Below are positions 23,829-49,496 of a stretch of 64,000 nucleotides of DNA, piece by piece. A program made the translations under genes and the position numbers. The first letter of the stretch is position 1; each line of letters starts with the position of its first letter. This stretch comes from Thermobifida alba (GTDB taxonomy: Bacteria; Actinomycetota; Actinomycetes; Streptosporangiales; Streptosporangiaceae), in assembly GCF_023208015.1 (NCBI RefSeq), contig NZ_CP051627.1:3578422-3642421 (forward strand), given 5' to 3'. The notes under the pieces are model-generated. The model saw only the letters and a program-made list of their open reading frames with translations. It made no database searches and was not told where the DNA came from.

Positions 23829-25793
23829 ATGCCGAAACCCGAGAGATTCGTGTCCCGGTCCGCTCTCGGCTGGGGGGCTTCCGGCGCCTCCTACGCCGAT
23901 CCGAAGAAGGGGTTGGTGATCCACTACGACGGGTCCGACCAGAAACTCGCCTCCCGGGACCACGAGGCGTGCGTCCGGTACTGGAAGAGCACCCGCGACT
24001 TCCACACCGGGCCGTCCCGGGGCTGGGCGGACATCGGCTACTGCGTGGACGAGGAGACCGAGATCCTCACCGCCGCGGGCTGGAAGACCTTCCGGGAGGT
24101 CCGCCCCGGTGACGTCGCGCTGACCCTGGACCACGGGACGGGGCTGGCGGAGTGGCAGCCGGTCCTGGACGTCTACGTCTTCCCCGCACAGCCGCGGACC
24201 ATGATCCGCATGGCGGGGCGCTTCCACTCCTCGCTGACCACGCCGCAGCACCGCTGGCCGGTGGAGCGCCACTCCCGGAACGGACCGGAACGGGAGCGGA
24301 CCTGGGCCACCACCGAGACGCTGGCCCACGGGGACCGCATCCCCCAGGCGGCGCCGTGCGCGGACCTGCCGACCGCACCCAAGTGGTCCGACGCCCTCGT
24401 CGAACTCGTGGCGTGGCTGTGGACCGGCGGCCGCGCCGCACCGCGGAGCCGCCGCCCCGACGCCGGTGTCGCCCTCCGGCCACGAGGGGGCCTCGGGGCC
24501 GCACGCATCAGGGCGGCGCTGCACGCCCTGTTCGGACCGCCGGTCGAGGGCTTCCCCCGGACCGGGCGGCGGACCGACGGCCGGCCCCGTTGGCGGGAGT
24601 GCCCCGACCGGCAGCCGGTGGAGTTCCACCTGTCCGCGGAGGCCGGCCGGGTGCTGCTGGAGCACGCTCCCGACCGGGTGGTGCGCTTCGACTTCCTGCG
24701 GTCGCTGACGCGGGCCCAGCTCGACCTCTTCGTCGAGACGTCCCTGCTCGCGAACGGTACCGGCAGAACGGCCGCCAGGACCTTCGCCCAGCCGGACCGC
24801 GGCCGGGCCGAGGCGTTCCAGTTCGCCGCGCTCCTGGCGGGGCACGCGACCTCGCTGCACCGCCTCGGACCGGACGACACGTGGCTGGTCCGCCTCCGCA
24901 CGGCCCAGGACTTCGCCCCCAGGGCAGCGGCGGCCCGGAGGGGCGCCTTCACCATCGCCGAGGAGCGCTACGCGGGGCACGTGTGGTGCGTGCGCACCCC
25001 CAACGCCACCTGGCTGGCCCGCCGCGCCGGAACCGTCTACTTCACCGGCAACAGCTTCGGGGCCTGCCCGCACGGCTACGTGTTCGAGGGGCGCGGCCTG
25101 TACAAGTCCCAGGCCGCACAGCCGGGCGGCAACTCCACCTACTACTCGGTGACGCTCATGTCCGGCCCCTCCGACGAGATCACCGACGCCCAGATCAACG
25201 CCGTCCGGCAACTGCGCGAATGGCTCATGGAGCCGAGCACGTCGATCAGCGGAACCGTCAGGGGCCACCGGGATTTCATCAGCACGTCCTGTCCCGGCGA
25301 CAAGCTCTACCGGATGGTCCGCGACGGAGTCTTCAACCAACCAGCACGGTGGGGAACCACCGGGGAGGAGGACGAGGTGCCGCACTACCTCAACATGGCC
25401 CAGACCAAGGACGTCGTGGTCTCGCCCGACAAGTACGTCTCGCTGCGCTGGGACACCGTGTGGACCGACACGGCCAAGATCGCGCACCAGGACGGCCTCG
25501 CCGTCATCTCCAAACCGTGCGACCTCAACGGCGCGCTCTGGCTGGAGATCGAGGGCCTGGACGAGGGCGAGGACGTCCAGGTGCGCATGGCCGACTGGGA
25601 GCGCAAGACCAAGAAGTACCACCTGCACCCGATCGCCGAGGGGGTCGGCACGGGCGGCCGGTCGTTCCCCGTGTTCCCGGTGGTCAACCGGCTCCCCGAC
25701 GGACGCACCATGGACCTGCGCGTCTACAACGTCAGCCAGAAGCCCTTCACCCTGCGCCGCGCCACCTTCAAGGGGCACGTCTGGCTGCGCTGA
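23829..25793 (+). CDS. PGRP/T7-lysozyme-type N-acetylmuramoyl-L-alanine amidase with an in-frame intein
   Basis: A 654-residue precursor; removal of the 337-residue intein (72-408) would leave a 317-residue amidase. The spliced sequence reads through GWADIGY-SFGACPHGYVFEGRG, the classic core of peptidoglycan-recognition/amidase_2 enzymes. Zinc ligands are His32 (LVIHYDG), His480 and Cys488 (GHRDFISTSCPG); Tyr71, immediately before the intein, is the predicted catalytic tyrosine. Residues 491-654 form an extra beta-rich domain of unknown role, perhaps wall binding. There is no signal peptide, as in phage endolysins released through a holin; a holin-like gene follows 107 bp later. It probably cleaves the MurNAc-L-Ala amide bond only after splicing. 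A bacterial self-lysin is the alternative to a phage relic. Confidence 0.93.
   Translation: MPKPERFVSRSALGWGASGASYADPKKGLVIHYDGSDQKLASRDHEACVRYWKSTRDFHTGPSRGWADIGYCVDEETEILTAAGWKTFREVRPGDVALTLDHGTGLAEWQPVLDVYVFPAQPRTMIRMAGRFHSSLTTPQHRWPVERHSRNGPERERTWATTETLAHGDRIPQAAPCADLPTAPKWSDALVELVAWLWTGGRAAPRSRRPDAGVALRPRGGLGAARIRAALHALFGPPVEGFPRTGRRTDGRPRWRECPDRQPVEFHLSAEAGRVLLEHAPDRVVRFDFLRSLTRAQLDLFVETSLLANGTGRTAARTFAQPDRGRAEAFQFAALLAGHATSLHRLGPDDTWLVRLRTAQDFAPRAAAARRGAFTIAEERYAGHVWCVRTPNATWLARRAGTVYFTGNSFGACPHGYVFEGRGLYKSQAAQPGGNSTYYSVTLMSGPSDEITDAQINAVRQLREWLMEPSTSISGTVRGHRDFISTSCPGDKLYRMVRDGVFNQPARWGTTGEEDEVPHYLNMAQTKDVVVSPDKYVSLRWDTVWTDTAKIAHQDGLAVISKPCDLNGALWLEIEGLDEGEDVQVRMADWERKTKKYHLHPIAEGVGTGGRSFPVFPVVNRLPDGRTMDLRVYNVSQKPFTLRRATFKGHVWLR
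24042..25052 (+). mobile_element. intein with class 3-like WCT triplet and degenerate LAGLIDADG core
   Basis: In-frame insertion encoding residues 72-408 of the amidase precursor. Block A is CVDEETEILTAAGWKTFREV with Cys72 as first residue. Block B is TTPQHRW (Thr138, His141, Trp143). Block F is GHVWCVRTPNATW (Cys387). Block G is VYFTGN followed by the +1 extein Ser409. Trp143, Cys387 and Thr406 match the non-contiguous Trp-Cys-Thr triplet of class 3 inteins. Penultimate residue is Gly407, not His. Between blocks B and F, LVELVAWLWTGG (about 190-201) and LFVETSLLANGTG (about 300-312) look like LAGLIDADG helices whose acidic residues are replaced, so homing activity is probably lost. Splicing remains plausible because Cys, Asn and Ser are retained. 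Confidence 0.9.
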
Positions 25794-25900: not shown

Positions 25901-26149
25901 ATGCTCACATCCGTCGTCCGCACCACCGTGCCGCTCATCGTCGGCGCGCTCAGCGCCTTCGCCGCCACCCGCCTCGGCATCGACCTGCCGGAGGCCGCGC
26001 TCACCGAGGTCGTCACGGTGCTCGTCGCGGGGGTCTACTACACGGCCGTCCGCGTCCTGGAGGAGCGCGTGTCGCCCGCGTTCGGCCGGGTCCTGCTGGG
26101 CCTCGGCCTGCGCGGCACCCCCAAGTACGACCTGGCCTCCCCCTCCTGA
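25901..26149 (+). CDS. holin-like small membrane protein
   Basis: 82 residues from ATG 25901 with GGGAGG seven bases upstream. Two hydrophobic helices (about 4-24, SVVRTTVPLIVGALSAFAAT, and 33-52, ALTEVVTVLVAGVYYTAVRV) are joined by a short loop and followed by a charged tail. Size, topology and position directly after an amidase without signal peptide fit actinophage holins or membrane factors that release endolysin. It may instead be a cell-envelope protein of unrelated function. It is followed by two tandem perfect hairpins. Confidence 0.75.
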   Translation: MLTSVVRTTVPLIVGALSAFAATRLGIDLPEAALTEVVTVLVAGVYYTAVRVLEERVSPAFGRVLLGLGLRGTPKYDLASPS

Positions 26150-49416: not shown

Positions 49417-49487
49417 GCGGATGTAGTTCAATGGTAGAACTTCAGCTTCCCAAGCTGATAACGCGGGTTCGATTCCCGTCATCCGCT
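49417..49487 (+). tRNA. tRNA-Gly (anticodon CCC)
   Basis: 71-nt cloverleaf. Acceptor GCGGATG pairs with CATCCGC (49480-49486), discriminator T. The D arm is GTTC/GAAC. The anticodon stem TCAGC/GCTGA encloses the loop TTCCCAA with anticodon CCC at 49449-49451. The T arm is GCGGG-TTCGATT-CCCGT. No CCA is encoded. It reads GGG codons. Confidence 0.95.
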
Positions 49488-49496
49488 CTCACAGCG

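Follow-up and report, generated by a model that had tools for sequence, protein, structure and literature searches.

Class 3 inteins splice with an N-terminal nucleophile that is absent or not needed (PMC5050341, PMC5222942, PMC7891396; these and the other papers named here are cited for the parts consulted). In a class 3 structure, the cysteine at block F position 4 (F:4), the histidine at B:10 and the threonine at G:5 form a catalytic triad (PMC7664689), and a cysteine at +1 was unable to replace the one at F:4 in a class 3 intein (PMC5222942). The proposed ancestor of the class is a class 1 intein of phages in which the first residue was lost (PMC3196547). A survey from 2020 put it at 1701 inteins, with those starting with cysteine excluded by criterion; hence a family joining Cys1 to the tryptophan, cysteine and threonine of B:12, F:4 and G:5 (the W-C-T set) would go uncounted there (PMC7891396). 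The AceL NrdHF intein itself has Met at B:12 (PMC7891396). Position F:4 is most often Asp and next most often Cys (PMC4031507), so that a cysteine at F:4 does not alone make a class 3 intein. On the class 1 side, the Bethlehem RDF intein splices completely and is slowed by a change of Gly to His (PMC5050341).

Here, we describe an intein of Thermobifida alba that has a cysteine at position 1 together with the W-C-T set. It interrupts an amidase gene in the window, i.e. the whole stretch of 64,000 nucleotides that was analysed. The features are as follows.

23829..25793, + strand: gene of the amidase precursor that carries the intein (654 residues and a stop codon), with a ribosome-binding-site-like GGAGG upstream and matches in Pfam and PHROG
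23829..24041, + strand: N-extein, residues 1-71, with the putative zinc ligand His32 and the catalytic-type Tyr71 at -1
24042..25052, + strand: intein, 337 aa, residues 72-408, a Hint domain with an inserted degenerate LAGLIDADG domain
24042..24044, + strand: Cys72, the intein's Cys1 (block A)
24249..24257, + strand: block B, with His141 (B:10), Arg142 and Trp143 (B:12)
24396..24431, + strand: LAGLIDADG motif 1, LVELVAWLWTGG, with Gly at the catalytic acid position (commonest at other sites: Glu)
24720..24758, + strand: LAGLIDADG motif 2, LDLFVETSLLANG, with Asn at the catalytic acid position (commonest at other sites: Asp)
24987..24989, + strand: Cys387, the block F:4 cysteine
25044..25052, + strand: block G, with Thr406 (G:5), Gly407 (G:6) and Asn408 (G:7)
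25053..25790, + strand: C-extein, residues 409-654, starting with Ser+1 and holding the putative zinc ligands His480 and Cys488
25901..26149, + strand: gene of a small holin-like protein adjoining the amidase; Thermobifida phage P1312 and a viral contig (L022) have a homologue in the same place

The preliminary description of this locus had proposed an intein of this length, inserted between GWADIGY and SFGACPHGY, and the comparison with uninterrupted proteins bears it out. The insertion lies between Tyr71 and Ser409, and eight uninterrupted homologues are contiguous across this site (nine were listed as empty, but one of them, L079, is really occupied), with Tyr-Ser at the junction in six and Tyr-Asn in two. 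Among the empty homologues listed, the most similar comes from Thermobifida phage P1312, whose amidase shares 74% identity (GWVDIGYSWGVCPHSY). AlphaFold2, given the intein with five extein residues on each side and an alignment of 68 relatives, returned a model with a mean pLDDT of 92.9 and a pTM of 0.92. Its first Foldseek matches in the PDB are VMA and other endonuclease-bearing inteins, followed by AceL NrdHF (target-normalised TM 0.74); the list also mixes BIL domains, hedgehog domains and I-DmoI, with the class 3 intein MchDnaB1 at rank 48, and these matches to a predicted model do not separate intein classes. The in-frame insertion at an otherwise contiguous site, the predicted Hint fold, the terminal Asn and the nucleophile at +1 all point to an intein. 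BIL domains are set apart by the lack of a +1 nucleophile, and here that position is Ser409. All residues named in the earlier account (Tyr71, Cys72, Trp143, Cys387, Thr406, Gly407, Asn408 and Ser409) are where it placed them; the block B histidine is His141.

Standard profiles mostly miss inteins of this type. In Pfam the window intein has only sub-threshold Hint matches (E 0.08 and 0.16), and in NCBIfam it has no intein match; among 68 relatives, at E <=0.01, Intein_splicing matched two and Hint_2 seven. Its best profile match in the PDB is the class 3 AceL NrdHF intein (E 3.6e-6). Elsewhere in the same genome, outside the window (L271, G000:C1:131865-132113), lies a second intein, a standard class 1 element with Cys1 and a His-Asn ending; an intein N-terminal profile detects it but gives no match to the window intein.

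We drew relatives from IMG/VR, GTDB genomes, genomes of the same group, phages and plasmids. The extraction profile began at residue 10 and gave 173 matches, 165 of them full length (8 partial ones were dropped) and 137 unique after merging of identical sequences. Four of these (L086, L167, L167b and L168) were set aside as decayed, being without the Asn and the +1 nucleophile, which leaves 133 that we call live, a label partly circular for Asn and +1 and not for the cysteines. The live relatives all have Cys1, His B:10 and Cys F:4; Trp B:12 is present in 124, Thr G:5 in 132, Gly G:6 in 129 and Asn G:7 in 132, and the +1 residue is Ser in 81, Thr in 43 and Cys in 9. In six copies other than the decayed ones Cys1 sits one residue further upstream. 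With the decayed copies added, Cys1 and Cys F:4 each stand at 134/137, three of the four having lost Cys1 (L086, a chromosomal copy, keeps it) and three Cys F:4. The remaining decayed copies are three plasmid copies from two loci in hypothetical proteins (L167 from a Streptomyces avidinii plasmid, with L167b, and L168 from a Streptomyces sp. plasmid): Cys1 and Asn are lost in all three and Cys F:4 in two, while Trp and Thr are retained; these copies are decayed or domesticated.

These counts depend on how the relatives were found. The search patterns of the first IMG/VR scan included the first residues, the Trp and the F:4 Cys. In the scan of GTDB genomes one pattern holds the Trp and none holds position 1 or the F:4 Cys; 38 of its 39 loci are live, and both Cys1 and the F:4 Cys are present in 38/38. 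In the second IMG/VR scan one pattern holds the F:4 Cys and none holds position 1 or the Trp; all 61 loci are live, with Cys1 in 61/61 and Trp in 58/61. The near-invariant set of the family, as read from the alignment, is Cys1, His B:10, Cys F:4, Thr G:5, Gly G:6, Asn G:7 and Ser, Thr or Cys at +1, usually with Trp B:12. Such conservation rules out a chance occurrence of W, C and T, which had been named as part of what would overturn the class 3 reading, and 133 live relatives rule out a single transitional oddity. The penultimate Gly407 in place of His, singled out in the preliminary description, is indeed there, but it is the rule in this family and not an unusual trait.

Annotated host genes among the phage records include those of portal protein, terminase, methylase and DNA polymerase. 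Among 394 sampled genomes of the host's class, 22 have a match at E <=1e-10, of which 19 belong to the host's own taxonomic family, the host genome included. A T. fusca intein in this kind of gene had been mentioned, and there is one: T. fusca NBRC 14071 (L054, identical to L002) carries an intein in the same amidase, at the same site and with the same residues, about 68% identical to the window intein and with endonuclease motifs that also look degenerate. We take it to be InBase Tfu-2914; a search of the open-access literature for Tfu2914 and for Thermobifida inteins yielded nothing. Apparent natural split inteins at three loci on viral contigs (L142, L158 and L159) were rejected because their halves lie in overlapping frames, i.e. 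they reflect a frameshift or an assembly error. A sequence search meant to widen the branch lacking the Trp returned only the contigs of the queries.

For comparison, a class 3 set was built from a bait sequence, through real phage class 3 inteins, to at least 80 IMG/VR loci, with search patterns placed within the endonuclease only; 85 loci gave 82 full-length inteins, 78 of them unique, among the matches listed. Among these matches, none of the 78 has Cys1; nine residue types occur at position 1, Ala in 52 and Ser in one (L180, of Mycobacterium phage Koguma, the only position-1 nucleophile in this set). H-x-W within residues 51-120 is found in all 78 of these listed inteins and a THN ending in 74, and no Trp, Cys F:4 or Thr G:5 is missing from any of the 73 clustered rows of the listed matches. 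Class 3 inteins such as MchDnaB1, AceL NrdHF, Bvi IcmO and those of phage TerL thus share with the window family the Trp at B:12 (except AceL NrdHF), the Cys at F:4, the Thr at G:5, the His at B:10 and, mostly, Ser or Thr at +1. The two sets part at both ends: no Cys1 and mostly THN in class 3, among the matches listed, against an invariant Cys1 and a usual penultimate Gly in the window family. As far as the alignments go, the W-C-T set is common to both families, whereas position 1 and the penultimate residue differ, and position 1 varies in class 3 only; we regard this difference as the central finding. As first described, the window intein combines Cys1 with a W-C-T set placed as in class 3, and it has the usual Ser at +1; yet the exclusion of Cys at position 1 from class 3 (PMC7891396; cf. 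PMC5050341) would leave it out, and a nucleophile at position 1 is what characterises class 1.

A wider set consists of nine phage inteins chosen by similarity, three of which (L170-L172) are also among the 133. All nine have Cys1, Cys F:4 and a penultimate Gly; six have Thr G:5 and two Trp B:12. One of them, in the phosphoesterase of Mycobacterium phage Mryolo (L173), is 317 aa long, with Cys1, Val B:12, Cys F:4, Thr G:5, Gly316 and a Thr-Gly-Asn end. Its length and Gly316 match the Bethlehem RDF intein, of which it is the apparent orthologue, and the latter would then belong to this group of phage inteins with Cys1 and a penultimate Gly. Read on L173, inteins of the Bethlehem RDF type share with the window family Cys1, Cys F:4, Thr G:5, Gly G:6, Asn and Ser+1, and fall on the same branch of the tree; they differ by Val at B:12 and by their host genes.

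Our block tree used 129 columns, without the five class-defining ones, and 80 rows out of 179 clustered (family, 37 of 88; class 3, 25 of 73; phage inteins, 9; bacterial class 1 inteins, 9). A starred branch (99) groups the window family with the nine phage inteins, class 3 lies on another branch (94) and the nine bacterial class 1 inteins stand apart (87), values to be read in the light of few columns and long branches. Profile comparison by hhalign gives the same nearest kin, with E 2.4e-42 for the phage inteins, 8e-11 for class 3 and 2e-5 for class 1 references, the last represented by 9 sequences only. Nevertheless, an AU test does not reject a single clade of all W-bearing inteins and class 3 (p 0.459), nor does a second one reject a clade of class 3, the window intein and the 18 inteins nearest to it (p 0.576); in the latter test the constrained tree scored 6 log units above the free one, which therefore was not the optimum. 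The profile and tree checks that had been proposed thus place the window intein closest to phage inteins with Cys1 and a penultimate Gly and apart from the bacterial class 1 inteins, without rejecting a union with class 3.

The exteins of the amidase match Pfam Amidase_2 at 28.3 bits (cut-off 26), and the host protein matches a PHROG endolysin at E 4.1e-36. For the uninterrupted P1312 amidase the E value is 8.9e-9 against PGRPs but no better than 0.63 against T7 lysozyme. Tyr71 aligns with residue 78 of PGRP-LB (1oht), which we take to be the position of the catalytic Tyr, in keeping with the earlier claim of an insertion right after it. The Tyr, two His and Cys of the zinc site of Amidase_2/PGRP/T7-lysozyme-like amidases are in register with Tyr71, His32, His480 and Cys488, whose catalytic or zinc-binding roles are presumably those of T7 lysozyme and PGRP-LB. 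The score and these four residues mark the frame at 23829-25793 as a likely member of this group, from which it differs by the intein and by an extra C-terminal region (506-654). Because His32 precedes the intein while His480 and Cys488 follow it, the unspliced protein would have no active site. The choice of site may reflect a family preference for an aromatic residue at -1 rather than targeting of a catalytic residue, since 52 of the 89 Cys1-beginning rows at non-amidase sites also have an aromatic residue there, as the amidase site has Tyr.

The holin-like protein next to the amidase is 65.8% and 64.4% identical to its counterparts in P1312 and L022. It has no Pfam match, and its size and place suggest a holin. 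The gene is found near the amidase in six of six stretches (L001-L004, L054 and L056), as is mshA. A macro-domain gene is near it in four of them (L001, L003, L004 and L056) and in another genus (L298); it was not seen in the T. fusca stretch around the amidase. That the holin-like gene also adjoins the amidase in P1312 and on a viral contig suggests an origin as a phage lysis cassette, which appears to have become fixed in the genus Thermobifida. A single tRNA gene was found in the window, a tRNA-Gly (ccc) at 49417-49488.

The endonuclease tells another part of the story. An active LAGLIDADG enzyme has an acid in both motifs, and in the window intein Gly stands for the usual Glu and Asn for the usual Asp; it is probably homing-dead. 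Of the inteins at the amidase site, 16 of 38 retain both acids, against 93 of 99 elsewhere; the count is 78 of 82 for inteins from viral contigs and 19 of 41 for those from bacterial genomes, with alignment gaps taken as loss in both comparisons. Yet all 38 unique amidase-site inteins keep Cys1, the His, the W-C-T set, the Gly and the Asn, with Ser or Thr at +1. Hence, the splicing residues have been retained while homing decayed, as expected where an intein is still required to splice and its mobility has ended. Two amidase-site inteins from genomes of the same family (L309 and L310, in G139 and G077) are down to 263 and 268 residues because their endonuclease region is collapsing; Cys1, Trp, Cys F:4, Thr, Gly and Asn are all retained in them. 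In each of six pairwise comparisons, which amount to four distinct gene copies because of duplicates (L002 = L054, L003 = L056), dN/dS of the endonuclease exceeds that of the N-terminal Hint part. The N-extein and amidase part lies at 0.12-0.42. The pattern is not clean for the short C-terminal Hint part (0.12, 0.14, 0.62 in T. cellulosilytica and 0.51 in L004, the last above the 0.42 of its own endonuclease), nor for the C-extein tail (0.18, 0.84 and 0.50).

Taken together, the sequence comparisons make it likely that this is a genuine intein of an actinophage and actinobacterial family, with a start at Cys1 and Cys387 as an obligate partner, derived from a phage lysis cassette and probably no longer homing. 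Cys72 would form the first thioester with Tyr71, as in class 1, and the acyl group would move to Ser409; Asn408 would then cyclise and the amidase halves join, uniting His32 and Tyr71 with His480 and Cys488. Cys387, aligned with His141 and Thr406 like the class 3 triad, would be indispensable, either as an activator only or as an acyl carrier itself. The intein would have arrived with the lysis cassette and now sits in Thermobifida chromosomes. One might object that Cys1 is conserved because it could serve folding or redox control instead of acting as the first nucleophile, and that Ser or Thr at +1, found in 124 of the 133, is a class 3 trait too, and that the best PDB profile match is a class 3 and not a class 1 intein. 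A more elaborate version of the Cys1 start is a relay, in which the linear thioester at Cys1 passes to a second, internal one at the block F cysteine and then to Ser or Thr at +1; we regard it as rather unlikely.

On the class 3 pathway, Cys387 would be the first to attack the bond between Tyr71 and Cys72, with Cys72 playing no part. This reading draws on the W-C-T set and on a spacing of 19 residues from Cys to Thr, the same as in MchDnaB1 (Cys124 and Thr143), as well as on Ser+1, the AceL NrdHF match, the joint clade that the AU test tolerates, and the Ser1 of Koguma in an otherwise canonical class 3 intein. But a residue without a role should drift, as the first one has in class 3, where nine residue types and no Cys occur among the matches listed; an invariant Cys1 thus argues against an idle residue. 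Besides, the RDF-type relative with Cys1, Cys F:4, Thr G:5, Gly and Val B:12 was classed as class 1 (PMC5050341). We therefore find the class 3 pathway improbable, and of the class 3 or transitional status first suggested, the W-C-T set stands while class membership is not established. The suggestion that either Cys72 or Cys387 may start splicing, both nucleophiles being at the right places, fares worse still: redundancy predicts that one or the other is occasionally lost, and neither is lost in any of the 133 live members. In class 3 such nucleophiles are not freely interchangeable either, given that Cys+1 could not substitute for Cys F:4 (PMC5222942). It is just as hard to believe that the insert is a non-splicing relic or a domesticated Hint domain in an inactive amidase gene. 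Lost endonuclease acids, the clear decay of the plasmid copies and of L086, and an amidase that is probably dispensable speak for it; every splicing residue is nevertheless intact, as in all other amidase-site copies, the amidase part shows low dN/dS, and the frames are open in four genomes of the genus, the host's included. Among these readings, splicing that begins at Cys1 and cannot do without Cys F:4 is the one that best accounts for two cysteines never lost in live members.

The definition of class 3 is said to have been widened by Tori and Perler in 2011. By title and opening of abstract, we found no description of a family with Cys1 and the W-C-T set in the open-access literature, and earlier notice in Tori and Perler 2011, Tori 2010 or InBase is possible. 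The consulted parts of PMC7664689, PMC7891396, PMC3196547, PMC5050341, PMC5222942, PMC4031507, PMC7765530 and PMC9957025 do not describe one.

A phage-type intein that keeps both cysteines of two splicing mechanisms is a test case for the conversion of one into the other. The descent of class 3 from class 1 needs an account of how splicing survived the loss of the first residue, and a large living family that unites Cys1 with all of W-C-T would offer a natural point of departure for that origin. If the relay through the block F cysteine were true, class 3 would have arisen by losing its first step, and the W-C-T set would predate the loss of Cys1.
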